Source of the DNA: Anaeramoeba flamelloides
Taxonomy: Eukaryota; Metamonada; Anaeramoebidae
Reading direction: 5' to 3'
Assembly (NCBI GenBank): GCA_027625915.1
Contig: JANTQA010000057.1
Coordinates: forward strand, 9,796,001-9,860,000
Length of the DNA: 64,000 nt
Below are positions 1-59,900 of the stretch, one piece after another. Numbering within the stretch: the first letter of the stretch is position 1; every line of letters begins with the position of its first letter. The notes beneath the pieces were generated by a model. The model did no database searches. It was not told where the DNA came from and worked only from the letters and a program-made list of their open reading frames with translations. A program made the translations under genes and the position numbers.

Positions 1-2259
1 CATTGGCCAGACAGTGTAGTTACCTATTGCCCCGAATTAAAAACATTATTTACTTGTGATGTATTTGGAAGTCATTTTTCTGATGAAAAGATGTTTAAAG
101 ATCGGATTGTTGGCAAAGAAGAATTAAATATATTAACGAAAGAAAGGGAGAAATTCTTTCAAGTGATTTTTAAGCCATTTTCAAATCATGTTCAAAAATT
201 ATTAAAAAAAACAAAGGATATTAAAATCCAAATTCTGTGCCCGTCGCATGGCCCAATCTATCGGGATAATGATGTTCAGGAAATTATTGGGTTGTGGGAT
301 GATTGGTCAAAGCCAGTTAAACAAGAAAACAAAATCATAATTGCGTATATTAGTGCACATGGCTTTACAAAGGAAATTAAAAAAGAAATCAAAAAGGGTC
401 TCCTGAAAAATGAACAAATGCAAGTTGTTTCCTTTGATTTGAATAAATCTGAGAACACAGCAGAGACGGTTTTAAAGGAACTCGAAAGTGCCAAGTGTAT
501 CCTCTTTGGCACGCCAACGTTGAATGGGGACGCGCATCCCTTAATATGGGAAATTTTGTCAAAGATGAGTCCAAAGGTCCATGGCAATGGCAATTACTTT
601 GGTGGTGTGTTTGGGTCATATGGTTGGAGTGGTGAGGCGGTAGAAAATGTTACACAAAGGCTGATTCAATTAAAATTGAAAGTGTTGCCACCGCTAAGAA
701 TTAGGTTCCGGGCAAACCCAGAAGAAAGGGTATTTTGTACAAATTGGGGTCGCACAATCTCCAAAATACTTGGATCCAATAAATTTGAAGAAGACCTGCA
801 AAATGATTCTTATTTACAATTTAAAAAATCAATCGCTAAAAATAAATTAAAATTTTCAAAAATTATTGCATACTCTAATGAACAACAAAGAGTAAATGTA
901 AATAATAGATCGTTCATTAGTAGTAGCTTCCATTGTTCCCCAAGATCCAATAATAAATTGAAACTGTGGAAATGTATCATTTGTGGCGAATTAATAAAAT
1001 CAAAGTTTATTCCGAGAATTATATGCCCCGGGTGTAGTGCGGGTCCTGATATTTTTGTTTGTATTGGGGTAATAGAAAATGGTGGTGATAATGTTGATCA
1101 AAATGATTCCCAAATAACAAATAATGAATTTGCTGGATATGAAACTTTTCAAAGCGCTTTGCAAACAAGTGAAAATGGGCAACAAGAAATAACCGGATCG
1201 CATCACGATGGTGTTCTTACTGATAGCACTAATAGTGACAAATCCCAAAAGCATGAAAGTAACAAAAGTACTCTGTTGAAAAGAAAAAAATACATAAGAT
1301 ATTCCTCGATCGCAAAAATTTCTGAAAACTCATCAAATCAGATAATTAAAGAAGGAATCAAATCTGATTTTAAAGGGCACATTGTTGTTGTGGGCGCATC
1401 TGCAGGTGGTGTTTCTGCTGTCAAAACGATTAGGAAATATAATAAAGTTGCACGGGTAACATTAATATCAAAAGAAAATTGCATGCCATATTACCGGGCG
1501 CTCTTAACAAATGCGCTATCAGATTTCAGAACTACCAAGAGCAATAATTTCCAATTACTAACAAAGGAATGGCTGGTTGAAAACTCTGTAGATTTATTAA
1601 AAAATGCGGTCTTGGTAAAAATCCGAAGGAAAAAAAAAAAAATCACAGTGAAATCAAGAATCCAGCCAAATGAAAAAATGAAAAAAGATTGCTATACTTT
1701 GACATCAAAATTTTTAAAAATCAAATATGACAAATTGATTTTAGCCATCGGGGCAAAGCAAACCATACCAAAGGAAAAGAAAAATAGATTATCAGTTTTA
1801 TATCCAAAGATGTTTAAAAAAAAAAATAATATGGACAATAATTTAATTCTCAAAGATGAATTCATACATAGTAAATCAAATGTGTTTAGTTTCCGAGCCC
1901 TGGATGACGTGTATGAATTAAATTTATTTTTAACAATTGGAGACCATAAAAAGGCTATTATCATCGGGTGTGGCCCTCTGGGCATCGAAATAATGGACCC
2001 CTTAACAAAAATGGGCATTGAAAGGATCGACATTATTGAAACGAGGGATAGAATAGTTTGGAGCCGCTTTGATGAGAGTGCTTCAAAAATGACAAAGGGG
2101 CTTTTAAAACAAAAGGGTGTTTCCTTTTATCTTGGCTATGAAATGGTGAGAATATTAGATCAAGAGGAATTCATAAAATTGGAACAGATCCAAAATAAAA
2201 AAAAAAATCAATCAAATATATTCAAAAAGTCAACCAAAGTTAACTTGAACAATGAAGAA

Positions 2260-2303
<44 letters not shown>

Positions 2304-3834
2304 TAAAAATAATAATAATAAAAATAATAAAAATAAAAATAAAAAAAAAATATCCAATTTTGATAAATCCATGGCATATGGGATAGCTATACAATCCATT
2401 GATCTTGAAAAAAAGGAATTAATTTTATTAAAGACAGATTTGATAATCTTTACTTCGGGTGTAACCTCGAATATCGCCTTGGCTAAAAAAAGTAAATTGG
2501 ATTACAATAAAGGTATAATCGTAAACCCCCATATGCAAACGTCGGACCGACATATTTACGCATGTGGTGATTGCATGGAATTTGATGGGTTGGCCGAAAA
2601 ATATTGGAAGCGTGCAATAATCACGGGTAAAATTGCAGCCAAATTTGTACTTGGTTTGCCCAACACCTTACCTTACATGAGAGAGATCCCTCTTTATTCA
2701 ATGACAGCCTTTGGTACCCATTTCTTTTGCTCGGGGACAATCACAGATTACAGGTTAGATTGTCTTTCACGTTCGTCATTCCAAAAGAACGAATATTTAA
2801 GAATATTCTTTGAAAAGAATTTTGATCAGTTCATCATTGTTGGTGGGATTTATATCGGAAAGGATCCATTGATGATTTTAGATTTGGAAACCTTTATTCA
2901 AGCCAGAACAGAGCAAAAAAGGGTAACAAAAAGATTAATAACGTTTCACCAAACTAAGTCATCAGTAATTGCGCCCAAGTCTGGGAAGAGAGGGTTTGGT
3001 GAGAGTATTGAAAATGCAGCTTTAATACGTGATATTATGAAAATGGAATTGAAGACAAATGAAAATAGAATGAAAAATGAAAATAATAATGAAGATGAAG
3101 ATGAAAATGAAGATGAAAATGAAAATGAAAATGAAAACGAAAATGAAAACGAAAATGAAAATGATAAGGATTTGAAGAAAAATAATATGAAATTACTTGG
3201 GTATGAAAATTATCTTAAAACCACAAAAAAGATGAAAAATTCTGAAGAAAATGAAACAGAAACAGAAACAGAATACAGTTCTGATTCTGTCAAAACAAAT
3301 AGTAGTGATGAAAATATTGAAGGTTATCGTAATATGGTAAAAGATGACCAAAGGGCGATTTCCAATGATGCAGTTGATTATAAACTGTTCACGAGGCTAA
3401 TATTCCCAAATTTAAAATATTTGACTTCAATGCCCAATGCTTTAAATCAATTTAGATCCTTTTTGAAACTGGAATTTGCCGATGAGAATATCGACTTTTG
3501 GAATGAAGCGGAGCAGTACCAATCATACAAAAATGGACACGAAGATCAAAAATATATTGCTAAAAGAATTTATGATAAATATATATCGGCAAAAGCCGGC
3601 CGGGAAATCAATATAGAACATGGAATTAAAGTAGAAATCTCAGACAAAATTCGAGAGGGGCTGATCGATAGGGATCTTTTTGTTGGTGCCAAAAATTGTA
3701 TTGAAAATTTGTTATTAAACGATAAATTTACTCGTTTTTTAGAATCCAAATTTGCAAAGCAAATATTACAAGATAAATTAAAGCTACTAGAAAGAATATA
3801 TAATCAAGAAGTTTTGGAGGTTAAAGATTTTTAA
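1..3834 (+). CDS. Flavodiiron-flavodoxin-rubredoxin-NADH oxidoreductase chimera with C-terminal RGS domain (5' partial)
   Basis: The frame is open from base 1, so the 5' end lies outside the window. Upstream of the first ATG (91) it already reads HWPDSVVTY and LFTCDVFGSHF, the end of a flavodiiron metallo-beta-lactamase core; the main iron-binding motif is off-window. Next come a flavodoxin (about 325-790; SAHGFT phosphate loop, NGDAHP, FGSYGWSGEAV), a rubredoxin-like knuckle (964-1071; Cys codons at 973, 982, 1024, 1033), and a two-dinucleotide-fold NADH:rubredoxin oxidoreductase (1378-2900; FAD motif GASAGGVSAV, NAD motif GCGPLGIE, then YACGDC). Family knowledge: such proteins reduce O2 or NO using NADH in the cytosol of anaerobes. 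An Asn-rich loop (2253-2360) and an acidic linker (3040-3180) lead to an RGS domain (about 3390-3800) with ADENIDFW and FTRFLESKFA. The diiron-to-oxidoreductase order matches class F flavodiiron proteins; the RGS addition is not something I know from the family. A single exon is visible. Confidence 0.95.
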
Positions 3835-5189
3835 TTATTTTGTAGGTTGTTATATGTCTTAATATACACGAGTGGTACTTTGGTTTTAAAGAATTTGTTT
3901 TGATGATTATAAACATCTAAATTTGATTAGAATATTGTTAAAATCAGCTCTTGATTCACTATTTTGGTTTAACAAACCACCAGAATCTTTTGCTAAAAAT
4001 TGAAAAAAAATAAAAATATTTTCTACATTTTATTAATTTATTAGTTATTAATTTCAAAATAATTTACAGATTAGTACAAAACGGTGAGTGGATTTGCTTG
4101 TTTTTTTCTTGGGGAATTGAAACAAAAAAGAAAACCGTTTGATTTTTTTGGAAAAATTGAAATTTCATTTGAAATTTTTTCTTGAAAAAATACATCTCTT
4201 TTTTTTCTGTACCATCGGGTGGAACACACTCCAACAAATTCTAACAATTTTAACCCCAAAATTGAAATTAAACACAGCTTTCCATGAGTTGAGAAAATAA
4301 ATTTCTCTTTTTGTTATTTTCTTTAATCAAAAAAAAAATAATAATAATAATAAAATCCAACTACTATCAATTATTCAAGTTGCAAATGGTTTTATTTACG
4401 ATGTGTGAATTTGTAATTTTTAAAACCTACTTGGTAATAAATAATCTCAAAAAGTAAATCTCATCAAAGGAAAATGGGTGCCAAATTCTTGATTTCTATA
4501 AAAGATTTGATTTTTAAAAGAAAATTTTACTTCAAAAAGGGCAATTAAATCTTGTTTTCCAGTCTTAATCTAAACTAAATAACTTTTTATCCATTAGAAT
4601 TTGAATTTGAAATGGTGGTTTTCCAAAAAATTATTGCAAAAAAAAAAAAAATACCTTCTTATTTTTCGAAAAGTTTTCTTATTTCAGTACATTTCGGTTT
4701 TCAATACAAACCTATTTATATATAAATCCCTTATGATCAAAAATACAGAGTATCTAAACTTTTTTAACCTTGTTAAATTCAAATTTCAGTAAGCGGCTCT
4801 CCAATCAATTCCAAATTAAAAGATTTTTAATGATGTTTCCACAATAAGAAAAAAATGTTTCAGTTTATTATCTTTGATTTTTTTTTTTCTTTTTTAGTTT
4901 ATTGATAATCAATTCCCTTTTCAATTTTTAATATTCGCATAAGAGTCAATATTATTTTTGGTGTGGATTAGTGAAAATTAGAAAAAAAAAATATTGAGAA
5001 TCTTGCGAAAGCTATATTGTTATATTTATTACTTTGAAAAAAAAAAAAATCTAGTTTTCTGACCCAAATTTGATCAAATTTAGAATTGTGGTGGGGGTAA
5101 TTTTTTTATAAAATAAAAGAAAAGTTCAAACATAAATTTTTATTATTGAAAAACATTCTTTAGAGATAAATCTTGCCTTTCGAGTATCC

Positions 5190-12225: not shown

Positions 12226-15200
12226 TTAATAAATCCCTTTTAATTCTTTTAAGAATTTTTTTTGATTTTGTTTTTTTTTTTGTTTTTTAATTAAAGATTT
12301 AGATTTACTATTATCAAAAAACATCATTTCAATTTCATCCCAGTTTTTTTCTTTCATTCTTCTTTTAGTGACATAATTTTGGTTTCTGAATTTTTTTTCA
12401 GTTTTGATTCTTTTGGTTCCAAGTTTTAATGTGCCAAGATAATTTAAAATTGTTTCAAATCTGATTAATTGGTCTTGCTCCCAGACACCTTGATATTTAT
12501 AGCGTCCCCATATTGCTGCATGTAAACAGGTTTCACTGTTTTTATTTATATTTTTCATGTTTCCTCCGTTTGCTTTTAAAAATTTGATGATTTTCAAATG
12601 TCCATGGAAAGTGGCATAATAGAGTGGTGTGTTTCCATATTTGTCTTTGACGTTTGGATTCACAGATTTTTTTTTTATTAAATATTTTAATGTTTTATAA
12701 TTTCCAAAAATTGAACAAGAATGAATTGGGGACTTCCCTGTATAATCATTTCCATTAATTGGTAGTTTTTGTTTTACTAAATATTTGAATGTTCTTAATG
12801 ATCGCTTTGCTATTTCCTTTTTTGTTATTTCTTCTTTTTTTTCCATATTATCTTTAATATTTTCTTTTTCTTCTATTTTTCCTTTTTCTTCTTTCTTCCT
12901 TTTATCTTTATTGCCAACTCGATTTTTATTTCTTCTTTTATCTTTTCCATCTTTTTTTTTCTTATTAGAATCATCAGTTTCCGATGAAGACAAGGACGAA
13001 GATCCTGCTGATGATCCGGTTGATTTTTCTGTTGATTTTTCTGTTGAAGATGCTGTTTTATCTGTTGATTCTGATGAAGATTTATATCTACTTTTTGATC
13101 TACTTTTTGATTTTTTGTTTTTCTTATCATCTTTATCCTTATTATTTTTTTTACTCCTCTCCTTACTCCTTCCCTTCTCCTTGCCCTTTCCCTTCTCGTT
13201 CTTATCCTGACTTTTACTTCGTTTATTATCTGTTGTTAATTTTGATTTATTTATATTTATCGTTATAACTGTTGGCTTCTTGATTTGACTATGAGTTCTT
13301 ATTGCTAGTGCCTTTTTTAACCCGATTTCGTTCTCCTTTATTTGTTGTTTGGCTAATTGTTCCTTTTCTAAATTTTCTTTTTCAATTAAAATAGGGGTAT
13401 CAAGGATTTTTTGATGCTTTTCCATTTTTTCACGGAATTTATTTTCTTGATTTTTTAAATAAAGCTTCATTTTATTTTCTCTTTCATGTTGTTTTTCAAA
13501 CCATTTTTTTTCTCTTAAATTCCTTTTTGCCTTTTTAGTTTCTTTATTCTTATTACTTAATTTTTCTAATTTGCTTTTAAAGTTTATTAATTCTTCTTTT
13601 CGTTCTTGTTCGGGTATATTTTCTTTTTTTAAGATAATTTTCTAATTCAATCAAAGTTTGGATTGTTTCTTCCATTGTTTCAAGAACCTGGTTTTCCATT
13701 TTTTCAATTTCTTCGTCTAATTGTTGTTCTGTTTCATAAATTTTGATTTTTTTTTCCTTGGTTGGTATTTTAGATATATTAGTTAATATTGCTTCTAATT
13801 CTTGAATAACATTCTCATTTTGTTGTTCTTCTTGTTCATCATTGTTGATTTTTAACAATAATTTATTTATTCTGATTATTTTTTCCTGGATTTCTTTTAT
13901 TTTTTCTTTCTTGATATAATTTCTTTCTTTTTTTATCTTTTGATATTTCTTTTGGTTAATTTTTTTTTCTTTTTTTTTTTCCCTAATTTCTTTCCTTTTT
14001 TCTTCTCTTTCTTTCCTTCTGAGAAGTTTTTCTTTTTTTCTTTTTTCAGATTCTTCCATTTTTAATTTTTCTTCCTTTTCTTGTTCTTCTTGGATCCTTT
14101 TCATTTCAACTTGGATTTCCGTATTTAATTCTTCTTTTTCCTGATTAAAGATTTTTAATTTTTGATTTTTTTCTGCTAATTTTTCAACAAATTCTTTATG
14201 CTCATTTTTTTTTAAGGTCAATGATCTTATTAACAGATTTGAAGCGTCATCAAGAATTTTTATTGGATCAATTATACTTTTTTCAATTCTTTCTTCCATT
14301 TCTGGTTTAAATTGTGGATAATGTTCTTCACTGATTAATATATTATCTTTATAAATATTTATATTTTTTTCTAATTTGTTTAATAATTTTTTTATTTCTT
14401 CTTCTTTGATCTCATTTTCATTTTCATTTTCATTTTCACCTTCGTCTTCAAATTTTTGTTTTTTTTTTTTTTCAATACCAAATAGAATTTTTTTAATACT
14501 CTTATTTGACCTTCCTTTTTTCATTTTTCTTGATTTAATCAATTGCTTGTGTAACAATTGCTTTTCTTTTTCAATTTTTTTTTGAAAATTTTCTATTTTT
14601 TCTTTTTTGTTGTGCAAATTTAATTTTATTTTCTTTCCTTTCTTTTCTTCTTCTTTTTTTCGCTTTAATTTTTTCATCTCGAAGTTTTTTCATTTTATTT
14701 AAGAGCTTTTTTTGTTTTTCAATTTTTTTATTCCTGATTTCCTTTCGTTTTTTTCTTTCTTCATGTCTTTTTTCACTTCTTATTTCATATTCTTTTAAAC
14801 TGTGAATGAATTTTTCAAGTGCTTCTTTTTCCTGGGTTTTCAGCTTTTCTTTGCTTTTTAATTTATTGATTGGCTTTTCAAATTGATCAATAATAGTTAA
14901 AAAGTCTTCAAAATCTTGTTCTGATTCTTCAATTAAATCTAAATCTAATTCAAATTGTTCATAGAATTCTTTTGACTGCTTTTTATCATCTTCAGTTCTT
15001 TTTGTTTCATCATTTACCTGTTTGATTTTTTTTTTTATTAAATTTTCAGTTTTTTCAATAATTGGCTTTAATTCATTCAATAATTTCTCTTCTTCTTCCC
15101 CTCTTTGAGATTCATTTTCTTCATCATTTTCGTCTTCATTTTGTAATTTGTTGTTTAATTTGTTAATAATTTTATTTGCCTCTTTTCTTTCTTTTGTTTG

Positions 15201-16517
15201 TTCTCTGATTAACTTTTTTCTTTTTGATATCATTTTTCGATATTCCTCTTTTTTTCTTTCTTTTTGTAATTTTTTTTCTTCTCTTTTTCTTCTTCTTCTT
15301 TTTCTCCTAATTTTTTGAATTTCTCTTTTTGATAAATTTTTATTAATTTTTTCTTCACTTGAAGAATAAGTCCCATCATTTTCTGATGATGACGTTTCTG
15401 AAGTTCTTGATCTTGATTCTGAATAGGACGATGATCCTGTTCTTGATCCTGAATAAGAAGATGATTCTGATCTTGATTCTGAAGAATTATTTTTTTTTTT
15501 TGATCTGGATCTGGATCTAGATCTGCTTCTGGATCTTGATCTTGATCTGGATCTGGATCTGGATTTTGGTTTTGTTTTAGATTTAGATTTTGGTTTTGTT
15601 CTTGTTCTTGATTTTGATTTTGGTTTTAGTTTTGATTGGGAATTTGACGTTAACAGTTTTTTGCTTTGTGGTATGTGAGATTTTGATCTTGGGTTTTTGT
15701 TAGCTTTTTTAGAAACTCTTGTCCTACTTTTTCGTACTTTTGAGACAGAGCGATCCAAATCCTTTAATTGCTCATAATCTGTCATCCTTGAACGAGACAC
15801 CCTTGTTTCAAAAACCATTTTTTTGACTGTGTTGCCTCCCTTGCCATCTTTTTCAGATTCTGTAACCATAATCGCTGGGATGTTTTTTTCCGTTTCAGAG
15901 TCGGAATCGGAACTGTCTGTGCTGCAAGATTTGCCTTTCTTGTCCTCCTCAATCACCCATATGGCCAACATTCTTGAACCAACAGTCGAGATTTTTAATA
16001 ATTTTGAGTTTGTTGGGAGTGTTGAAACGGCTCCTCTTGACAACAGTAATTGCGTTTTTTTTTTCTCGTTACAAAAGATGCTCATCTGGAATGGCGTCCT
16101 CCCAGACGAGTCTTTGATCGTCAAATCACATTTGCTTTCAATTAAAAGATCCAGTATCTCTGAAACATCGCCACGGCAAAGAATTAGTGCATGCGTAGGA
16201 GTCATGTTATTTGAGTCCAGCGAATTAATTTCTGCTCCTTGTTTAATTAATTCAGCCACAACCTCTGTTTGCCCTTTTAAACATGCAAAGTGCAACGCAG
16301 TCCTTGAATTGGGCCCTTTCAATTTAATGTCAGCTCCTCTTGAAATCAGGAACAAAGCCATCTTGGGCTGTTGCCTTAAAATGCTCATATGTAATAACGT
16401 GTATGGGGTTTTTGGTACTTTCTCGTTAACACTTATTTTTGATTCATTTAACAGCCTTTGGAATTCTTCATATTTTCCCTCTTTAATAATTAAATTCAAA
16501 TCAAAATTATTTGTCAT
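12226..16517 (-). CDS. Ankyrin-repeat protein with RS-rich and coiled-coil centre, spread over three reading frames
   Basis: Three overlapping minus-strand frames read as one protein of about 1,430 residues: 16517-14571, about 14684-13577, and about 13642-12226. The ATG at 16517 is the first in frame and is followed within 40 residues by ankyrin repeats (about residues 38-165; SRTALHFACLKGQTEVV, SGRTPFQMSIF). Then come an Arg-Ser dipeptide tract (about 15500-15600), long Lys/Glu coiled coil, and a second ankyrin block near the C-terminus (12790-12450; GNTPLYYATFHGHLKIIKFL). Each frame change is +1, and the overlap windows contain no GT on the coding strand, so a GT-AG intron cannot begin there. 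Both windows contain A7G (plus-strand T7 at 13624-13630 and at 14653-14660). Homopolymer indels in the assembly, a decaying gene or programmed shifting are the options. Role: probably a scaffold; the RS tract suggests nuclear location and SRPK phosphorylation, which is inference. Confidence 0.8.
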
Positions 16518-17786
16518 TGTTTTGTTTTTGTTGTTCTTTTTTTTTTTTATTTTTCTTTGTTTTTGTTTTGTTTTGTTATGTTCTTTTTTTTGTTTTGTTA
16601 AGTTTTGTTGTGTTCCCAACTGAATTCAAAAAAAAGATCGTTTTATATTTTGAAACTCAATTCAAAAATGAAAAAGGAAAAGAGAAAAAAAAATTTAAGA
16701 AAATGAAAAGTTTGAAAATTTTTTTTTTTATCAAAAAAATAAAGAATGAATGAAAGGGAAATAATTAATTAAATGTAAATTGTCTTGATATTTGTTTCCA
16801 AGCTTGTTTTTTATTTTTAGGATTTTTAGACCTAAATTTCAAAAGGTATAAAGAATAAGTTGTAACAGATTTTTTTTTGATTTTTCTTCTAATTATTTAT
16901 CATAAATGATTACTTTTTAATCTTAAAATAGAAACAAACACTTTTTATAAATAATTAATACAAAAATTGTTTGATTTTTTTTTTCAAATAAGGCAAATGA
17001 AAAAGAAATTTTGATAAATTGAAGTTGCAATTTTTAAAAAAAAGAGAGAGGTTTTAAAAAGTTTTTGAAGTGTTACTAAATTTGTTCGATCCTAAATTTT
17101 TTAATTTGGTTGATAAACAATTCTAAATCTTTTTCAATCAAAAATTGATAAATATTAGGGCTTTTATTTATTTAAATTTTTTTTTTATAACAGGCACACT
17201 TTAATAGTTTTGAGTAATCTTGGTTTAGGATTTTCCTTTTTGAGTGGTTCTTTTAAATACAAAAGCCTTTTTTTTTGTTACTATGGAAGAAGAAATTCGA
17301 AAAATTTTCATTACATCTTTGGTGTTGGCTGTTATAAAAAAAAATTTCAAAAATAATAAAATTCAATTTTTTTGATCAATCTAAAATTTGATGATTTTTT
17401 TTATTTGGTTTAAGGAAAAAAATTTTTCCTTAAATTTTAATCCTTTATTTTTTAATTTAAGGAGTACTTTCCTTCAAACGGAAAAAAGCGAAATTATATG
17501 AAGAGTGTAGATCCAAGTGGTTTGGTTCTTGGTTAATCCATCACTTATTTTGAATTTTTAACTTTATTTCAAAAAGGAATTTTTTTAAAATTCATTTTTT
17601 TATATCTAAATTCCTTAAGAAAAGTACCTTTAGATCCAGAAACACTTAATAATAAAAATAGGAACTATATATTTTTTTTGTAGAGATTTTTTTTTGTTTT
17701 GGTTTTCACTTTATTAAAAATTATTCAAAATGGTTTTTTACTTTATTTAGATATTTGGAAAAGTACCATTAAAATCTACTTCTTTA

Positions 17787-24821: not shown

Positions 24822-25889
24822 ATGTTCACAGAAGACAAAACAGAATATTTTGATGAAGAAGATGAACTCTTAAAAAAAGTAAAGAAAATGGCTAAAATGA
24901 TCCGTAAAGCCAAAAAAATTGTTGTCTATACAGGTAAGTAATTAGAAAAACAAAGGAAATAAAAAAAAAAAATATTCAAAATCTTTTTTTTTTTGATCAA
25001 TTTTTACTTCATATAATAAATCTTTTTTTGTATTGTGATCTCAAAAGGAGCTGGTATCAGTACTTCTGCAGGAATACCAGATTATCGAGGACCGAATGGT
25101 GTTTGGACATGTAGAAACGAAGGAAGAAAGGCACCACGTGTAAAAAAAGCGTGGAATTTATTGGAACCAACTTTTGCACATATGTCAATTGCAACTTTAA
25201 TTGAAAGAGGGATTGTCAAACATCTGGTGTCGCAAAATGTGGACGGTCTTCATGTCCATTCGGGCGTCCCACTTGGCAAAATCTCTGAGCTACATGGAAA
25301 CACAAACAAAGAATATTGCCAAGACTGCAAAAAGGAGTATTTCAGGCCATTTTGTGTTGCAGAATCTTCAACAATGAACCATTTAACAGGAAGGATCTGT
25401 GACGAATGCGGAGGCTCGTTAATGGACTCGATCATCAATTTTGGTGAAATATTGAATCCTGAAATCATTTCCAGAGCATTAAATGAAGCTCAAAATTCTG
25501 ATCTTTCGCTCATCTTTGGGACAAGCTTAAGAGTTGCACCTGCAAACAAACTACCAACAATCCCTGTTGAAAATGGAAATGGCAAAATGGCCATTTGTAA
25601 TCTCCAAAGAACACCACTTGATAGCTATTCAAAGCTATTGGTTAGGGGCAAAACTGATAAAGTCTTTAAATTGTTGATGAAAGAATTGCAAATCCCTGTT
25701 CTATCATTTAAAGAAACACTTGAATTAAGAGCTAAGGAAAGAAAAGTCAAGAAATTAAAAAAAAAAAAAAAAAAAAAAAATAAAAAAGAAAATGAAAAAG
25801 AAAAAGTAAAAAAAACAAAAAAAGTGAAGAAAAAATTAATCAAGAAAAAAATACCAAAAAAATCAAACCCTAAATATTTATGGAAATAA
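24822..25889 (+). CDS. Class IV sirtuin, SIRT7-like protein deacylase
   Basis: NAD+-dependent lysine deacylase. Exon 1 (24822-24933) and exon 2 (25048-25889) flank a 114 nt intron with donor GTAAGT and acceptor AAAAG; joining restores YTGAGISTSAGIPDYRG at residues 36-52. The 317-residue product carries SQNVDGLH, the catalytic His120 in ELHGN, zinc ligands Cys128, Cys131, Cys155 and Cys158, INFGE, FGTSLRV and CNLQRTP. The wording RGPNGVW and NLQ-TP-D with a C-terminal Lys-rich tail is closest to SIRT7/SIRT6 (class IV); SIRT7 is nucleolar and acts on chromatin, so a nuclear or nucleolar place is likely by homology. The tail contains a run of about 24 A in the DNA. Another frame after the stop (25840-25995) encodes a plausible acidic ending, so the true C-terminus is uncertain. 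Confidence 0.95.
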
Positions 25890-27200: not shown

Positions 27201-29906
27201 TATTCAAATATTATAAATTGAGAAAAATGATTCTAATTTGAAAATTTAAAATCAAAGTTAGATTTTGATTTTCTTGTCATCTTCGCTATTAATTTGGAAA
27301 ATTTGGGATTTTTTGAATTACGACCATTATCAAAGGATTAAAATTGATAGATTTTGAAAACTTACACTATATCACAATAAGAACCGTTCTGGGTAATCAA
27401 TTGTTCATATATTTATGGAGTAAAATGAGAAAAAAATTTATTTTAATTTCAAATAAAAAATTTTCAATTTCAAGTATACCTTGAAATTCCATTTTTTTGA
27501 TCAAATTAAGATATTAGTTAAAATTCTAAAATTTAAATATTTTCAACAAAAAAGGACTGAAACCATACAAATTATTAATAAATTTTCCAAAAAGAGAATT
27601 CATTTTTTTCGAGCTGATAAAGAAATCTTTTTACTAAGTTTGATTAAATCTTTATAAAAATATTTTTTTTAAAATTTTTGGAAAAAAAATAAATCAGATC
27701 TACTTCGCACCTTAAGGACTACACTAAAGTTCTGGAGAGTATTTAATTATTGTATTGTTTTTACTTTTACTTCTCAAAAAGAATTTTCATTCTGAAAAAA
27801 AATGATAAAAAATAACTTGTTTTCAAAAATCAAACCAATAAATAAATAAAAATTTTATTCATAAGGATTTGTGAATGAAAATTTGACAAAAAAATGACAT
27901 TAAGGGAATTTCAAGAAAAAATTCAAATTTAAAAACATTTCAAACTAATACAAATAACAGAAAAAAATATTTGGAACAGAACAGAAATTATTTATGTATT
28001 TAAAGATTTGGAAATGAAAAGTATGAAATTGTATAATAAATTTTTTTTTCTCGATTTAAGAAAGGGTAAAATTAGTGAAAATTGTTGGGATTGTGAAAAA
28101 TATCATATTTTTTGTATAAGAAATTCGAATATGTAGATTGAACTGAGATTATATAAACATTTCTAGAGTTTTTTCATCAACAATTTCACTGTTTTCACAC
28201 GAAAATTTAGTCTTTTATTTAAATATTGTTCTATAAACATTTCAAAAAACAATCAAATTTCTTTTTTGATAAAATCATTTATTTAATTAACCAATGTTTT
28301 AAATTTAAAATCATTTTTCTGTGTGCTCTAATCAGTCTTTATGGGTTGGTAAATCTCACAAATTTTAGTCCAGTTAGATCTAAGAAGTAAAAAATGGAAT
28401 ATTTTTCCTAAAATTGTAAGTTTGTATCAAAAAATGAAAAAGAGGTTCGGAAAAAATCTGCTTTTTCTTTAAATTTACCTTTAGAACAATTTTTAAAGCC
28501 CTCACACCTTTTCTAGATTTTTTTATATTTTATCATAATCAAAGGAAGTAAATTAAAAGTGTCTTAAAAGTTTTTTTAAAGGCTCAAAATCTAGTAAATT
28601 TGCATTTTTTCGATGAACAAACCTTTGTTATTTCCTAAAAAGAGATATTTTGAGAATAATCCACGTAAGTCGGTTTGGTATTGTATCGAATTCGCCAAAA
28701 TTCCTATTTCCGAAAATTGGAAGATCATTTTTTCTTGAAATGAAACATAATTTTATTTTTAGTTTACAAAAACTGAATAAAATTTGCAAAGAGAATTTCC
28801 ATTAGATCGTTTCAAGTAAAATTCCTAACAGCTTTCTCACACAACCTCATTACAATTTATCTTGATACTAACATATAGGCCTTGAGAGAAATAATAAAAT
28901 CAAAAAAAAAATATCATATGAAGATAAAATAGGTGTTTTGTATGTTTGGAAGTATCCTATCTGTTCAAAAATATAATCTACCAAATACTATATCACAAAA
29001 GAGTTGTTGTAAACTTCACTTTTTCAAAAAACAAAAAGAATCAAAATAAATAAAATGAAAAGAATACCCCAACTCTTTTGTTGGAATTAATCTGATTTAT
29101 CAAGACACAGAACAACCCAAGTAATTTAGTGATCAAAAATCAAAGAAAATGTGATCATTTAAAGTTCGACTTATTTATTGAAAATGAATGAAATGATTGT
29201 CATTTTTTTAAGTTAGAAAATCTCAGTTATTTTTCTTTTTCATTTTTATGTTTCTTTGCGAGGTTTTCGAGTTTAATTATCTGAAATTTTTTGATTATTT
29301 TTTCATTCTAAAAATTCCAAAATACTTTTTTGATCTTTATTAGAGAATATTTTGAAGATCATGAGTTCTCCTTGTAAATGATATTGAATAAAAAGGCATT
29401 GAGGGTATTTAATAAAAACTGAATCGGAGTAGTTAAGATAGTACAATAATTGTTACATAATTTTTTCTAATAAGGAAAGTCATATTGTTTCTAAATTTGT
29501 TTTAATTTGGAAATCAAATTTCAAACTCAATTTTTTTGAGAAATAATTTGAGACGAATATTGGAACGGGTCAACTAAAATTAAGAAGTAAAGTAACACTT
29601 CCTATTTAAGTCTCCGAAGAATATTTGAATTGAGAATAATTATCAATGCGAAATTTGACCCTTTACAAAAATAAAAAGAAATAGAAAAAAAGTTCACTTA
29701 TTTTACTTTGTTGTTAAAAGTTAAAAAAAAAAAAGGTTGAACTTTATTGTTAAATTCAAAACAAAATCTTGTAAAAAACATGTAAAAAATTTTTGGAATA
29801 TAAATTTGAGGCAAAATAAAAAGTTAAAAATTAAAAATCTCATTTTTTTTCATTTTTTATAAAACAAAAAAAATTTTTTTTTCAACTTATTTCTTTTTAG
29901 TTATTG

Positions 29907-32900
29907 ATGTCTACAAAAAGCAATAGTAGTTTCAAGGAAAAAAGAAAAAGAAATCAGGAAGGAGATGTAAAACAAAAGAAAAGAATTAGTAAAGGAAAAG
30001 GAAAAGAAGGAAGAAGTCTGAATGGGAGAGTTGTAAGAAGAGGTAAAACTCTAAAAAAAAAAAAAAAAATTGTATCAAATAAATCAAAAAGTAAAGTCAA
30101 TGAAAAGAAAATAAAACGAAATTCCAAAGTGGGAAAACGAGAGTCTACAAATGGCAAAATTGAGGATCAAGATTGGGTTGAATTAGGAAAAACAACACCC
30201 AAAAAAACTATAAAAACTGCAAAAACAAAAACAAAAAGAGCAACTGCAACAAAAACAAAAGCAAAAGAAAAAACACCAACAAAAGCAAAAACAACACAAT
30301 TCAAGAAAAAAAAACTTCACTCAAGAACAATCTCAAAAACCACAAGACCAAAAAAAAGAAAAAACAAAAAACTTATTTCAATCAATAAAACAAAAAGTCA
30401 ACCTAACTCACCGATTGTGAAAAGAAACGAAAAACTGAAAAAGGTTACAAAGCTTTACAGCGATAAAAAAAGCAAAAAACAAACACAAATGGATCTATCA
30501 AAATACTTTCAAAAAAGAACTACAAAAACAACAAAATCAAAATCAAAAACAACAAAATCAAAATCAAAATCAAAATCAAAAGCAAAAACAAAAACAACAA
30601 AAACAATCACAAAAACTAAGAAACCAATGCAAACCAAACCAAAGATTGTTAAAAAAAGAACGATAATCAAAAAAATCAATTTGAAGAAGAAATTTTTAAA
30701 TCCAAAAAAAAATAAAACAAAAACAAAAACAGAAACAGAAACAGAAACAGAGAAGAATAAAATAGAACACAAGTCCTCTCAAAAGCAAACCTTTGTTGAA
30801 CCCCAATTAAACAAAGAAAAAGACAAAGACAAAGACAAATACAAATACAAAGAGGAAGAAGAAAATGTAGAGCTTGGACTACTGACTTCAAGTGAATCTG
30901 ATGAAGAAAATCCAGATGATTATCGAAAAGGAGGTTACCACCCAACAAAAGTCGGTGAGATTTTCAAAAAGCGGTATAAGGCACTATTTAAGATCGGGTG
31001 GGGATACTTTTCCACAGTCTGGTTAATTGAAGATATCAAATATGGAGGTAAACTGGTGAGAACAAAGACTGGCAAAATTATCAAAAAAGAAAAATGTTTG
31101 GCTTTGAAAATCGTCAAATCTTCAAAAGTTTTTGCTCAAGTTGCCATTGATGAAATCAAAATATTAATGAAAAGTTCTTCAAACAACACAAACCAAGCTT
31201 CACCCGTTGTAAGGTTACACGACCATTTTCTACATCAAGGACCAAATGGCAAACGTAATATTCTTTCCTTTTTCTTTTTCTCATTTCTCTTTACCTTTTT
31301 ACTTTTTGCTTTTTACTTACTTTTTCTTGAGTGAAAATTTTTCAAAAAAAAAAAAAAAAAGATACCCCTTAAAAAACTTTTCTGGATTTTGACTTTTTTT
31401 TTTGAGTATTTTTGGAGAAAAACAACTAAACTTTTGTTTTAAAATTAGTCCATTTTTTTAAAGAGTTTGCTTGACTTTTTTTTTTGGTTTTTAAAAATTT
31501 GAGATAAAAAATTTTTTTTTTTTTTTTGTTGAAAAGATGAAAGCCCGAACAAGTTAAAATATAACCAAAACAGTCCAATCCAAAATCAAAACAAATCAAT
31601 TCAATTTTTACTAAAATCAAAACGAGACCCCATTTTGGTTGTTTAAATATTACAAACCCAATTTTGAAAAAAAAAAAATGTCATTTGTTTTTTCTCATAT
31701 TTGAAGTCTTCTACTTTCAGATTTCCTTACACAAACTTTAGTCAATTGGAATTCAATTCTCTACCACTTAACCAAACTTTTTTAGAGCTCTCCTAGTTTT
31801 ATTTTCTTCTATCTCAATTTTTTTTTTGGAAAACTTCAAAAATCAACAAAAAATTCAAAATCTTAAAATTAGAAATCTAAAAAGTGCAAATAACAAATCA
31901 CAAAGAAAAAATAACTGATAATAATCATAACAAAATCCAATTAATTACTAGGTTTTGATACAATTTATTGAAAAAATTAACCAACTTCCACTTAATCCAA
32001 CAATATTTCTAAATTTAAATTAATGATTAAGATATATAGATCTAGTAGAATGTTTACTTTTTTAATGTAAAAGAAAAAAAATCCAAAAAATAATTTTTAA
32101 TTAGCGATTGAAAATAAATAAATAAAAAATTAATCATCAAGAAAAATAAAATATCTAAAAATTAATCGTCAATAAAACATTAAATTATTTTGATGAAATC
32201 AAAAATTATTAGTCTTGATATTTAATTTAATGCTCTTATTTGCAAAAAAGATTTGAAAATTTTTATTTATGTTTTTAATTTTAACAATAAAATTAAAATC
32301 TTTTTTAAAAAAAAAAATAATTTACCAAGAGCAAATTTATTATTTTTAATATTTGATTTTATCTTTTGTAAAATTTCAGAAAAGAAATTTTTCAAAAAAT
32401 CTTTTTTTTTTTTCTATTAAATTTTATTTCAGAATAATAAAGACAGAAAATTAAAATATCTTTACAAATAAAACAATTAAATTGATTTCTCCTTCGATAT
32501 ATAACAAACACTAAACCAATATATTTTTCAATTTTCTTATCCTCATTACTAATATGCTTATTTCATATATTTGTATTATTTTCAGATTTTCTGAATTTTT
32601 GTAATTACTCAGACAATTTTACAGACTTTTGGTCAAATGAAAGAAATTTAAAATTGAATAAATGATCAAATATTCCAAAAAAAATTTATAAAAATACAAA
32701 AAAATAATTTAAACAATGAAAAGAAAAAAAAAAAATATTTTTAATCAAATACAAGAGAAAGAAAAGAAAGAAAAGCAAGAAAAGCAAAAAATAAAAGAAA
32801 GTACAAAATATAAAAAACTTATTTTTTTAAAAAGTTTTGTTTTTTTACCCCGAGTGTTTAATATATTGTTGGTTATTTGCTTTTATGTTAATTTTTTCAA

Positions 32901-35324
32901 AAATTTCTAAATCACCAACATCAAAATACAACATTTTTTTGTAATACCTTGCTCATAAAAAGTTAATTCTAGTCCAAGGAATTATTATCTTATTTATCAA
33001 AAGTTGATCCCCAGACAAGCCAATTCTATATAAGAAGAAGTTAAATTGTAACTACCATTTCTCTTGTTTGATGCTTTGCGAACTATATTAGAACCACAAA
33101 ATTGATTATTTTTCTTATTCTCTACTTTTTAATAAAAAAACAAAATAAAAAGAATTACTTTTTTCAAAGAATTAATTCCCTGAATCCCTATTTTCAAAAT
33201 AAATCATTCAAATTTTAAATCATATATCTCTCAAACATAAACTCTTTTTCAAATAAAAGGGAATATAAAATTTCAAGAATTATTCATAATTGAATCAAAT
33301 TAATTGTAGTATCATTCTAAAATATAATAAACTCTTTAAAACATAAAAAAAAACACTCTTCTGAATATTCAGAACTCATAAAAACAAAACAATAAAAATT
33401 AAAATTAAATATTTTAAAAATTGATGTGCCCTTAAATTTGAATTGAGAAATCTCGCTTTGTAAATTATTAAAGAAAAAAAAATTATCAAACCAATAAAAA
33501 CCTTTGAACAAGGTGAATTGGGAAAAAGTTCCTTATCTTTCTATTGATAACTCTTTACAAATCAAACTTTTGTTCTTTAAAGTCTCATTTTCAAGGTAAA
33601 GTAGAAATTCATATGGTTCTTTCGTTGGAATTGTTTTTTTTCTTTATTTTCTCTTTTCTTTGTTCCATACACCAACCCATTAATGGTCTTTTTTAATTTC
33701 TATATCTAGCTCATTCGAAATCAAACTTAAACTGTTTCCATTTTTACACTGGCAGATTATTTTCAAATTGTTTTCTTCTTATCTCGTTTTTTTAATTTTC
33801 CAACTGTTCACTATCCATAAATAAAAAACCAAAAAATGAAAAAATGAACAATTCAAATGAAAATCACCAACAAGTAATTATATTATTAACAATCAAATTT
33901 AATAGTATTGATGATTTGAGAGGTGTGCCCTTTTGTTTGAAAAAGAGTTTATGTCTAATATTAAATAATTTTTATTGAATTGTTTTTTTTTTTATTATAT
34001 ATTTTTGTATAAAAAATTTATGATTTTTATTTTTTTTTTTCATTTAAATCATTGATCTCTTAATTATCTTTATATTTGCTTAATTTTTTTTTTTTTATTT
34101 TTTTTTATCATAAATGAACTATATTTAATAGATATTTGTATGGCCTTTGAATTTCTTGATCAAAAAAACCTTTTAAGCTTAATTAGACAATATGGAGTTA
34201 ATGGGCTACCTATACCGATTGTTAAAGAAATCACTAGACAAGCCTTGAAAGGATTAGATCATTTACACTCAAAGTGTAAAATAATTCATACTGATATTAA
34301 ACCGGAAAACATCATGTTATATAGTAAAATTGGTAACATTCCGACAAGGTTAAAAGAAAAAATGGAACACGCACAAAAAAGAACAGAATTAAAAAAACAA
34401 TTAAATTTACAAGGAAAGAAAATAAATCAAAATCAAAATACCAATAAAAAACAAAGAGGGAAAAGCAATAACAATGATCCAAAACAAAATTCTGAAGAAC
34501 ATTCTGAATCTGATAGCAACTCTGACGATTTTATGAATATTACAAAAACAGGGGGAGAAATGACTCAACAATTTATACATCGACAAAGTAAGACTAGATT
34601 AATAAAAACTTTGAATAAAGAAGGAAATAATTATCTGCTCAAGAAAAAAAATAAGAAATTTGAAAAATCAGGTTCAGGATTATCTTTAACCAAGAAAGAA
34701 CAAGATTTACTTTTGAATGGGTTAAATAACAATAACGAAGATGAACATGAACATGAAAAAGAAAAAAGAAAAAAAAGAGAACAATTTTTAAAAAAAGTAA
34801 CGCCTGATAGAATCAAATGCAAAATTGTTGATTTAGGGAATGCATGTTGGTATGATAAACATTTTTCAAGTGAAATTCAAACGAGAGAATATCGAAGCCC
34901 AGAAGTAATTTTAGGACATGACTATGACTGGACAGCTGACATTTGGTCCATGGGATGCATGATTTTCGAATTATTGACGGGCGAAGTTTTATTTTCACCA
35001 AGCAAGGGTGATGGCTATTCAAAGGACGAAGACCATTTGGCTTTAATAATGGAAATGTTTGGTAAAATTCCCAAAGACATGCTCTTAACTGGTAAAAATT
35101 CAAAAAAGGTTGCAGATCCAAACGATGGAAATTTGAAAAGTGTAAAAAACTTGCATTTCTGGCAATTGGAAGATGTTTTAATTGAAAAATATGAATTTAA
35201 TCAAAAAACATCACAAGAAATCGCCAATTTTTTAAAGCCAATGTTTGAATACGATCTCAAAAAAAGAACTTCGGCAAAGGAATTATTAAAACATCCTTGG
35301 TTAAAAATTGATAAAAAAATTTGA
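29907..35324 (+). CDS. SRPK-type serine/arginine protein kinase
   Basis: Exons 29907-31254 and 34132-35324 join to 846 residues. The split codon c/at (His) restores NGKHICMAFEFLD, a typical SRPK segment. The N-terminal ~330 residues are Lys/Thr-rich with nuclear-signal-like stretches and a PIP-box-like QMDLSKYF (194-201). The bilobed kinase starts near residue 345 (ATP loop IGWGYFSTVW, ALKIVKS lysine), continues with HTDIKPEN (502-509), then a low-complexity spacer of about 170 residues, then DLGNA instead of DFG, TREYRSPEVI and DIWSMGCMIFELLTG. The spacer and DLGNA are hallmarks of SRPKs, which phosphorylate RS-domain splicing proteins in cytoplasm and nucleus. The ATG at 29907 is the first in-frame start. 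The intron between the hinge-side strands is 2,877 nt, with donor GTAATA and acceptor AATAG. Confidence 0.95.
31255..34131 (+). other. 2.9 kb intron of the SRPK gene
   Basis: Bounded by GTAATA and ATTTAATAG; the flanking exons restore the kinase frame exactly, so the boundary is well supported. The interior is A/T-rich on both strands, with no long ORF, no recognised repeat family and no inverted repeat of note. No second gene is visible inside. Confidence 0.85.
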
Positions 35325-55982: not shown

Positions 55983-56916
55983 ATGAATAAAGTCCAAAAA
56001 GAATATTTTGGACTTGAAAAAAACAAATTTGAAAAGACAAACCAAAATTCTCTTGTAATAGAAACAAATCCAAAAACAACAACCAACAAAGAAAAAAAAC
56101 AAAAAGATTCTGAAAACAAAGATCGTGAAGAAGAAAAAGAAAAAGAAAAAGATCAAGAAAAAGAAAGTGAACAGGAACAATTAACAAAAAAAGAAAAAAT
56201 CAAAAACAATAACTTGTTTTCCAAATTAGATGAAACAAAATATTTTGATTCTTCTATAGTAATTCCATCATCGCTAGCCAACTATCAAGAAAAAAGAGTT
56301 GTCCAAAAACTATTTTCTCAAGGCTTTGCTGAATTTTGTTTTCAAATGATTTTAAATCATGATCAATTCAAGACCAACACAAGCCATACGAAGTTTGGTG
56401 TGAACCAAAATAAATTGGTCTTATTAAAGTTAACAGTGACAAACTTTTCGATTGTTTATGATCAAAAGGTAATTTATCAAACAAAATACCAAAAAGTTCC
56501 AAGATCAAAAATTATCTTGAATACTCACTTACACAACAGTTTTGTTTTTTACATTGACGATAAGACAAAATTTAATTTCTTAGCGAATTCCGCCTTTGAA
56601 AGAAATTTATTTAAGACCACGTATCAAATGTTTCATTGGTATAATGGGAAGTATATTGAAAATCATCCAATAAATGGACACATTCTTTCCTATGCTGATG
56701 AAATGGATGCAGTTTCTTTAAGGTGTATAAAAAATGGAAACGCAATTTTTAATATTTGGTCGATAAGTGATACTGATCACAATAAATTAATAAATACAAC
56801 TTTAAAATTAGAGACAGATTGTTTAATTTTAAGTATCGACCCTGAAACTGAAGAAGAGGAGGAAGAGGAGGAGGAGGAACCCCCCCGGAAGCAACAGCAA
56901 CAGCAACAACAACAGC

Positions 56917-56948
<32 letters not shown>

Positions 56949-59900
56949 AAACAAAAACAACAAAAACAAAAACAACACAAATCATCTGATCAAGAAATTG
57001 AAATAAATAGCGACAGCAATTTAAATCAAAACAACGAAACAAAAAACAAAAAAGACCATAAGAGTCTAGGTTTGGATAAACTAAACAATTTAATTATTTA
57101 TTGGGATAAAAATTCCATTCAAGATTTAACAGATTCCACAAAAAAGGATTCTCCAATAGAGCTGTTAATTGGGGAGGTTACAGAAGGCTTTATCATAAAA
57201 TTAAAATGTGAAAACGAAATTACACGAGAATTGATTAGGAGATGTATATTTGCGTTTTCGCAAATAAAAACAAAACCATATTTATTCGTAGACAATGAGT
57301 ACACATTAGAACCTACCGTTACAGATGAATTAATACCTAAATTAAATATACCATCACGCTCAAAAGCAAATAACTCACAATTGCAGTCTGACTTACCAAT
57401 AATAACCCCATCTTTATTAAACGCTTGTTTGAAAAATTCAAAAAAATATAATACAAATCCCAATTCAAATCTTAATTCAACAAATAATTTTTCCTTTCCT
57501 GATCACAGTTCTTATTACAACGATTACAACATCTGTGAAAACAAAATCTATTCAAATTCTGTTTCTGAAAATATGTTATATTTCCCCAAAAAAAAGTCAT
57601 CAAACAATTTATTTTTTAAAACCCAATCATTATTTATTGGTCGATTTGACAAAAAGGGCAAAGGGGAAATTTTTCAAAATCACTTAGAATTACCAGTATC
57701 GTATTATGAAACAATTTTTTCACCGTTTTTTAAAAATTATTGTGATCTGAAGCATAATTTTTATCGGCTATTAAACCAAAAAATAAAAAAATATCTAAAA
57801 ATGGAAACTTGTAAATTCGCTGTAAAAATCAATTGTATTTATGACGAATCAAAAAAAGTGATTATTCCAATGAATTTAAATAGCGAATTGCAAATTTCTA
57901 AAAATCAAATTAAAATTGAAGTCATATCAAACAATTTAAAACAAAAAAATAACAAGACAATTAAGAAAAGAAAAAACATTACGAAAACAGACGACAATAA
58001 TATTCTACTAGAGTGTAATTTTTCTTCTCAAATTTCTGCGCACATTGATCCAATAAATTTAAACAGGTTTTTAATTAATGTCAGAGATTTAAAATTGAAA
58101 TTTATTTTTCAAGTAAATAGTCCAGTCTCTAGAGATGTTATTTGTAATTTAATCTATTGCAAACTAAATTATTTATATCATGGAAATTATTTTGAACAAA
58201 CTAATTACAATCAACAACCAATTAATATAACCAAGAGCCGGAAGAATAAAGAACAGAAAAGAAACGATTATTATAAAAAGTCCAAGGCAAAACCTTTATT
58301 ATTTAATTATATAAGAATATATACATTAAAGCCAATTTATGGAGCAATACTGTTACCCATGAATAAATCATTTGTTCGTAATAATAGGTCTTATGAAAAA
58401 CAAACTTCATTATTTGATTACCGAGATAATCATGAGCGTGAATTTCCAAACCAAACTCAATATCGTGCATTACTATTTAATTCTTTACAGGAGTTTACTG
58501 GTTTCATATTGGTTAATTTATTTTATGATCATTTCCAAATAATTTGCAATGAAAAAACAACATATTTTGATATTTGTAAAAAATATTCCATTTATTCAAA
58601 AATTTATAAATTTAAAAAAACTAGTAAATGGTGTAGATTTCATATTGATGAAAATTCATTTATAATATTAAAATTTGAAGAAAAAAATACTTTTAAAGTA
58701 TTTTTTCAAGATTTTTTGATAAAAAAGAAGAAAAACATTCAAAAAATTGTGAAACAGTTTCATAAGCAAATTTTTTCTAGTCAAATTTTAACAAAATTGG
58801 GGTATATTGATGGCAAAATGATTTTTTATAATGATTGTTTTTTAATTAATAGTAATATTGGGAAGCAATATTTTGATTATTTGCCAAATATCTCACTAAC
58901 AAATCATAAGTTTGATCAAAAAATAATAAAATTGAAAATCAATAATGAAAAAAATATGATCATTTTTTTTAAATTCCAGAAATTATCTGTTGCAAACAAT
59001 TTTTTAAAAACGTATAGAAATTATAAATATAGATACTTATCCCAGTCCTTCAGTAAAAAAATTCATTTATTTAATATAAAATTATTTAATAACAATTTAA
59101 AAATAAGAAAATCAAAGAATCATTATGAAAAAAAAATAAATACGAAAATAAATTCAAAAAATAAAACAAAAATACAAGATAATGTTCTTATGAAAAATGA
59201 TGATGCAATTTTAATAATAAATCCTAAATTGATTACAATAATTAAAAAAACTAATAATGATCAAAGTGTGTATACTATCGAAAAAATTAATATTAATTTT
59301 CCAAATCAAATAATTAAAAAACCTATTAATTTGTTAATAAAATTTTTAAAAAATAAAAAAATAATATTTAGTATAAAATTTAATGATTCTGATGATTTTA
59401 CAAAATTTTTAAATTTATATCAATCTTTCACTAAACAAATATTAAATATTAATGATTGTTCATTTAAAAACTCTAATTATTTTGTTGTCATGCTTTCTCA
59501 AGCGGGTAAAAATAGAAACTATAAAAATGGCAATAATAAAAATGGTAATGATAAAAATGCTAATGATATGCCCAAATTAAAAGCATATTTAACATTTAAA
59601 AAAAATAATTTGCTAATTGAATCATTTTATTTTAAAGAATTGTTAATAAAAGAATTGTTAATAAATATTAAATTTATTCAAATGAATCCATATCTGGTGT
59701 TATTATTCAAAAAGCAAAAAAAAATCTATTTGGAATTTTATTCAAAAAGAAATGAACATGAATTTATTAACAAATTCAATTTATTGAAAAATAACTTTAT
59801 TCAAACAAACCAAATCAATACGCCTATTAATAAAAACATAAATTCTGATAATAAAAGTTTTGATGAACAAATAAATGAAAGATTTATGATGAAAAAAAGA

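Follow-up and report, generated by a model that had tools for sequence, protein, structure and literature searches.

Class F flavodiiron proteins (FDPs), which include FDPF1-3 of Trichomonas vaginalis and the multidomain protein of Clostridioides difficile, combine in a single chain a flavodiiron core, a flavodoxin domain, a rubredoxin domain and an NADH:rubredoxin oxidoreductase (NROR) domain. The T. vaginalis proteins are described as NADH-driven, water-forming oxidases of 871 aa with the NROR domain at the C-terminus (PMC9364112), and the C. difficile protein is titled an NADH:oxygen oxidoreductase (PMC6033852). The Anaeramoeba flamelloides gene analyzed here shares with these proteins the order of the four modules, the diiron ligands and the two CxxC pairs, but differs from them in that an RGS domain is added to the chain. 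With proteins of the RGS2/RGS4 type it has in common the RGS box (72.5 bits) and the core residues that contact G-alpha. The small R4 proteins contain little outside the RGS box, and to our knowledge proteins of the RGS2/RGS4 type are devoid of any flavodiiron or oxidoreductase part.

The ODP of Treponema denticola, which is not known to have electron-transfer modules or an RGS domain, has a fold that is related to the flavodiiron part of the new protein through the Pfam ODP family, albeit by a weak match. This protein is described as a diiron O2 sensor that works together with a chemoreceptor (PMC7666581). In animals, O2 and NO act on the levels of RGS4, RGS5 and RGS16 via ADO, a separate enzyme, with O2 setting the half-life of these RGS proteins by oxidation of their N-terminal Cys (PMC12403002). 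The A. flamelloides protein differs from the ADO pathway in that an enzyme of the O2/NO-reducing type is part of the same chain as the RGS domain.

While the individual modules and the class F order are already known, the joining of an RGS domain to a class F chain appears to be new. The full-text literature, outside which most subscription papers lie, yielded no paper combining flavodiiron proteins or rubredoxin with an RGS domain and none pairing flavodiiron proteins with Anaeramoeba. Of six papers in which flavodiiron proteins occur together with a regulator term, five appear to concern cyanobacteria and one Pseudomonas, and apparently none of them deals with RGS proteins. Predicted proteins of the fused type may nevertheless have been deposited already without being noticed.

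Domain and exon structure of the fused gene

The window, i.e. the whole stretch of 64,000 nucleotides that was analyzed (C57:9796001-9860000, in a 254-Mb genome of 76 contigs), is AT-rich. The genome report describes Anaeramoeba genomes as AT-rich and credits A. flamelloides with more than 1100 ribosomal protein genes (PMC11550330). Positions 1-3834 of the + strand form a single open frame of 1277 codons that closes with a TAA stop, which bears out the sequence-only reading of this DNA, where one uninterrupted frame had been seen to pass through all the domains. The frame opens one codon upstream of the window start, giving 1278 codons in total, as expected for an exon edge, and a predicted splice site would place the start of the exon one base upstream, at C57:9796000.

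The N-terminal part of this exon (1..312; this and the following features are all on the + strand) encodes the second half of the flavodiiron β-lactamase-like domain, with metal-ligand positions at H1, D20 and H83 (aa), the first of which corresponds to H146 in the numbering of D. gigas ROO. It is followed by the flavodoxin (FMN) domain (313..774; aa 105-258). Both parts emerge clearly from comparison with PDB sequences, in which the best match, over aa 1-255, is E. coli flavorubredoxin (E 2e-26) and other flavodiiron proteins come next, despite the fact that their Pfam matches lie under the curated cut-offs (ODP β-lactamase, aa 1-84, E 1.2e-5; Flavodoxin_5, 0.0072). The rubredoxin-like domain (967..1056), with its CxxC pairs at aa 325/328 and 342/345, is likewise matched under the cut-off (RUBY_RBDX, aa 323-352, 0.0022). 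The NROR domain (1363..2865), delineated by alignment, accounts for two further Pfam matches of the 1277-aa translation, one to Pyr_redox_2 at E 2.2e-38, most closely over aa 460-734, and the other to Pyr_redox (1.9e-11). In this copy it displays the FAD motif GASAGG and the NAD motif GCGPLG, and contains an Asn/Lys-rich insert near 2251-2350.

The end of the NROR domain and the linker to the RGS domain occupy 2866..3411. The acidic linker that had earlier been placed at 3040-3180 and likened to a flexible join is indeed present, as an Asn/Glu-rich repeat at about 3055-3165, but it is specific to this copy: the five paralogues described below have shorter linkers without the repeat, and among the six fused proteins the linkers before the RGS domain vary widely in both length and sequence. 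The RGS domain itself, previously proposed for about 3390-3800, was recovered by a Pfam HMM search at 3412..3753 (aa 1138-1251; PF00615, E 5e-20), scoring 72.5 bits where the curated threshold is 23.9. Taken alone, it matches RGS2 (4.3e-15) and RGS4 (6.6e-15) among the PDB sequences. A short charged C-terminal tail (3754..3831), evident from the frame translation and the alignment, completes the chain. Judged from the domain order and these Pfam and PDB matches, the composition of the fused protein is close to certain. The chimera of class F type that the sequence-only reading had described, in which flavodoxin, rubredoxin-like and NADH oxidoreductase domains lead into an RGS domain, is thereby upheld; its flavodiiron core is also present, with the correction that only the second half of the β-lactamase domain lies within the window.

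The first half of the core, including the HTEPDH metal motif, is found outside the window in an upstream frame at about C57:9790746-9791212. This frame runs to C57:9791212, where it meets a GT, and a predicted splice would continue it in phase at the window edge across a GT-AG intron of 4,787 nt. For seven related genes of this genome an intron of the GT-AG type is predicted to interrupt the identical codon. In two shorter flavodiiron genes an AG occupies this intron position, with no 5' site found for them. A search for the start codon of the window gene in the HTEPDH frame yielded none. An additional exon further upstream is likely, since this frame lacks any ATG before the domain begins and is preceded by a TAG that offers, in its AG, a possible splice site. 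The predicted intron before the HWPD motif measures 2.8-4.8 kb in the six RGS-fused genes as against 319-323 nt in the two class F genes of this genome that lack an RGS domain. The intron of the window gene contains only short ORFs, the longest being of 132 aa.

The fused family, its ligands and its contact residues

When the genome was searched with the flavodiiron-flavodoxin part of the window protein, 12 matches were recovered, its own included. Five of these (C1, C61, C70, C13 and C9) belong to genes that also encode an RGS domain and share the order of domains, with RGS Pfam matches of 82.3-97.1 bits. C1, C61, C70 and C13 are single frames of 1059-1083 aa counted from HWPD. C9, on the - strand, consists of two frames (3427-5154 and 1961-3466) whose junction falls in a stretch of 16 A inside the NROR domain, and this switch may be either genuine or an artifact of sequencing. 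Two further matches, C33 and C48, are class F proteins without an RGS domain that end after the NROR domain; the fusion is therefore not universal in the class F family of its own genome. The remainder comprises two shorter flavodiiron proteins (275 aa from HWPD) and two distant matches (25-26% identity). The window protein is 39-46% identical to its five fused paralogues in the β-lactamase domain, 46-56% in the flavodoxin, 43-62% in the rubredoxin, 44-48% in the NROR and 42-45% in the RGS domain. The RGS domains of these paralogues are also the five best non-self matches of the window RGS domain (40-45% identity, E 1.1e-32 to 4.2e-26), the next best of 122 genome matches reaching 4.6e-12 at 30% identity. 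It had been envisaged that the two halves might always be separate genes in relatives, with an assembly join at this locus; a check on the paralogues of the same genome found five more fused loci, and the fusion was not refuted. On this comparison it is near certain that a class F flavodiiron enzyme is fused to an RGS domain in one chain.

A tree of the catalytic part groups the six fused proteins in a single clade (100/100), whose sister group is the pair of RGS-less class F proteins from the same genome (100/100), apart from 23 bacterial rows. The latter are every second one of 45 class F-length frames, which were obtained from 80 loci, the best 80 of at least 574 stretches that two peptide patterns had picked up and that were then confirmed. 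The window protein, placed beside C1 and C61 with support of 93/86, has an end branch of 0.77 and has diverged further than any of the other five. Nine rows, including the fused proteins of the window, C9, C70 and C13, have a letter make-up that departs from the rest of the alignment. A label-shuffle control of the tree was weak, a single change being reached in 45 of 500 shuffles. This topology is suggestive of one fusion event followed by duplications, which forms part of the explanation preferred below. The 45 bacterial frames end 692-784 aa after HWP, whereas the five single-frame fused exons extend to 1059-1277 aa. A bacterial origin of the fusion was rejected: judged by length, none of the 45 class F-length frames from these best 80 of at least 574 stretches is long enough to accommodate an RGS domain.

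Purifying selection on the RGS and the catalytic domains is observed in two close pairs of fused genes. For C1-C61 and C70-C13 respectively, dN/dS is 0.06 and 0.09 in the RGS domain; for window aa 956-1135, which precede this domain and include the NROR end, the values are 0.11 and 0.10, and in the catalytic domains of both pairs it ranges from 0.04 to 0.22; these values are only rough, because dS in the close pairs is 0.73-2.09 (1.05-2.09 for the RGS domain and the stretch before it). The window copy, when compared with C1 and C70, has pN below pS in each of six stretches, and gives no firm dN/dS on its own because dS is high or saturated. The possibility that the window copy is a pseudogene was also rejected, as its ligands are kept, its frame is open and pN stays below pS in all six stretches.

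The HxExDH motif and the later His, Asp and His are present in all eight class F proteins of this genome, the HxExDH of the window gene being contributed by its upstream frame via the predicted splice. The four rubredoxin Cys and the glycines of the NAD motif are also kept in 8/8. Of 150 columns conserved in bacteria, 106-111 are retained in the RGS-fused proteins versus 126 of 150 in the plain class F proteins of the same genome. An alignment with 47 rows that lack an RGS domain (45 bacterial and the two from this genome) has 135 conserved columns; at 77 of these every one of the six fused proteins agrees with the outgroup, and at 18 every one departs from it. The changed columns include the Gly two residues past HxExDH, which is found in 79 of the 80 bacterial loci and is Leu in all six fused proteins, at a point where the alignment has a two-residue gap, as well as a Tyr-to-His change at aa 120, taken to be in a putative FMN-side loop. 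At aa 82, another of the 18, two outgroup rows also differ, and the two plain class F proteins of this genome share the same Ser. Because the fused enzymes are more diverged, with changes near HxExDH and at aa 120 among others, their catalytic activity may be altered or lost.

At the other end of the chain, 14 positions of RGS4, taken as its contacts in the RGS4/G-alpha-i1 complex, were compared across the six RGS domains. E87, N88, N128, L159 and D163 are identical to RGS4 in all six, and the first two correspond to the Glu-Asn pair that the sequence-only reading had singled out for contact with G-alpha. E83, S85 and R167 are identical in five of the six. The rest are less well kept (E126 and S164 in 4/6, Y84 in 3/6, D130 in 2/6, S131 and R166 in none). 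The window RGS domain retains eight of the 14; among the six differences, Y84 is replaced by Phe, S85 by Ala and S164 by Lys.

The genome contains 124 matches to G-alpha, a count made exon by exon and hence higher than the number of genes; a single match, below the cut-off, was found among 14 prokaryote controls. There are at least 150 matches to the RGS domain, all above the cut-off (150 of 472 candidates having been scored), with none in the 14 controls. Open frames were found at six of 16 other RGS loci examined. The RGS and G-alpha matches, together with those to the ribosomal L14 family (16 to each half, 32 in all), represent large expansions in this genome.

Possible links between the flavodiiron enzyme and G-protein control

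The explanation that we prefer, and that we consider somewhat more probable than its negation, is that of a bifunctional class F flavodiiron-RGS protein, derived from one fusion event with ensuing duplications, in which the shut-off of G proteins most likely depends on local O2, NO or NADH. In such a protein NADH would reduce the FAD of the NROR domain, from which electrons would pass by way of the rubredoxin iron and the FMN to the diiron site, there to reduce O2 (or NO). The RGS domain at the C-terminus would bind activated G-alpha and speed the hydrolysis of GTP, and the fusion would make this shut-off respond to O2, NO and NADH in the surroundings. The sequences themselves show that the two parts are fused, that this arrangement is conserved and that ligands and core contact residues are retained, while we infer catalysis, GAP activity and their coupling, including its direction. 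The G-alpha and RGS matches of the genome and the oxidase activity of the T. vaginalis class F proteins speak for this explanation; the divergence of the fused enzymes, the six contact positions at which the window copy departs from RGS4, its long end branch and the frame switch of C9 speak against it. Both ends of the protein are likely to be functional, and control of the GAP by O2, NO or redox state is plausible; the catalytic and RGS parts could also have been joined for localization only. A more specific version, which we put forward only tentatively, has the fused protein sensing O2/NO on behalf of heterotrimeric G proteins in a hard-wired manner, where the turnover or redox state of the chain would gate the GAP directly, as an independent counterpart of the animal ADO-RGS system. 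With the same reserve, such a putative sensor would have been maintained as six diverged loci in an apparently anaerobic amoeba.

The best explanation and its rivals overlap, and the likelihoods that we attach to them do not sum to one. The RGS domain might act as a targeting handle by which an ordinary scavenger of O2/NO is held close to active G-alpha, at the membrane or the leading edge, with no redox signal passing to the G protein. The completeness of the cofactor ligands, the abundance of RGS domains in this genome (at least 150 matches) and the variable length of the linkers, as is seen in tethers, are in keeping with this idea; indeed, the variability of the linkers is evidence against a rigid allosteric path and is no less consistent with a tether than with a rigid switch. 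We regard it as somewhat unlikely all the same, given that the kept contact residues and the dN/dS of 0.06-0.09 in the RGS domain fit a working GAP equally well, and that a plain tether has no need of the changes near the metal and flavin motifs that are peculiar to the fused clade. The 18 of 135 columns altered in all six proteins, with the Gly to Leu replacement after HxExDH among them, might instead point to the flavodiiron part being a low-turnover sensor, in which O2 or NO at the diiron site, or the reduction of the flavin, switches the RGS domain in a manner akin to ODP. The ODP is itself described as an O2 sensor for chemotaxis (PMC7666581), and the window protein resembles this family over aa 1-84, at 1.2e-5 and below the cut-off. 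Against such a sensor stand the retention of all ligands and of the four electron-transfer modules and the purifying selection on the catalytic domains in the two close pairs. Moreover, an NADH-driven chain is not obviously needed by a pure sensor, and we hold this alternative to be improbable.

Only a single genome was examined, which would leave room for the fusion being a chance neighborhood of two genes or an assembly join. This is very unlikely, because five other loci of the same genome share the domain order, with RGS domains 40-45% identical to that of the window and four of them in one frame. Such a join or pair of neighboring genes was rejected on the strength of these paralogous loci and of the selection that acts, in both close pairs, on the sequence leading up to the RGS domain.

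A bifunctional flavodiiron-RGS protein would tie an enzyme of the O2/NO-removing type to G-protein control within one chain. In animals the connection of O2 and NO with RGS proteins runs through regulated proteolysis; a fusion of the two functions in a distant protist would show that such a link had an independent origin. The fused protein would also offer a compact system for in vitro tests of the redox control of a GAP.

Other features of the window

The window contains no RNA genes at the Rfam gathering scores and no tRNA according to ARAGORN. On the + strand, 55983-61748 is an open frame of 1921 aa to which Pfam assigns nothing within a limit of E 0.01. Two frames that combine ankyrin repeats with extended charged and repetitive regions are located on the - strand at 12226-13470 and 14571-16619. 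A frame for a protein kinase is found at 34140-35324 (+; Pkinase, E 2e-34). The frame upstream of it (29904-31334) has no Pfam match; its end resembles the start of a kinase domain, apparently SRPK-like, and it may be an earlier exon. Finally, a frame for a sirtuin of the Sir2 family is present at 25035-25889 (+; PF02146, E 5e-28).
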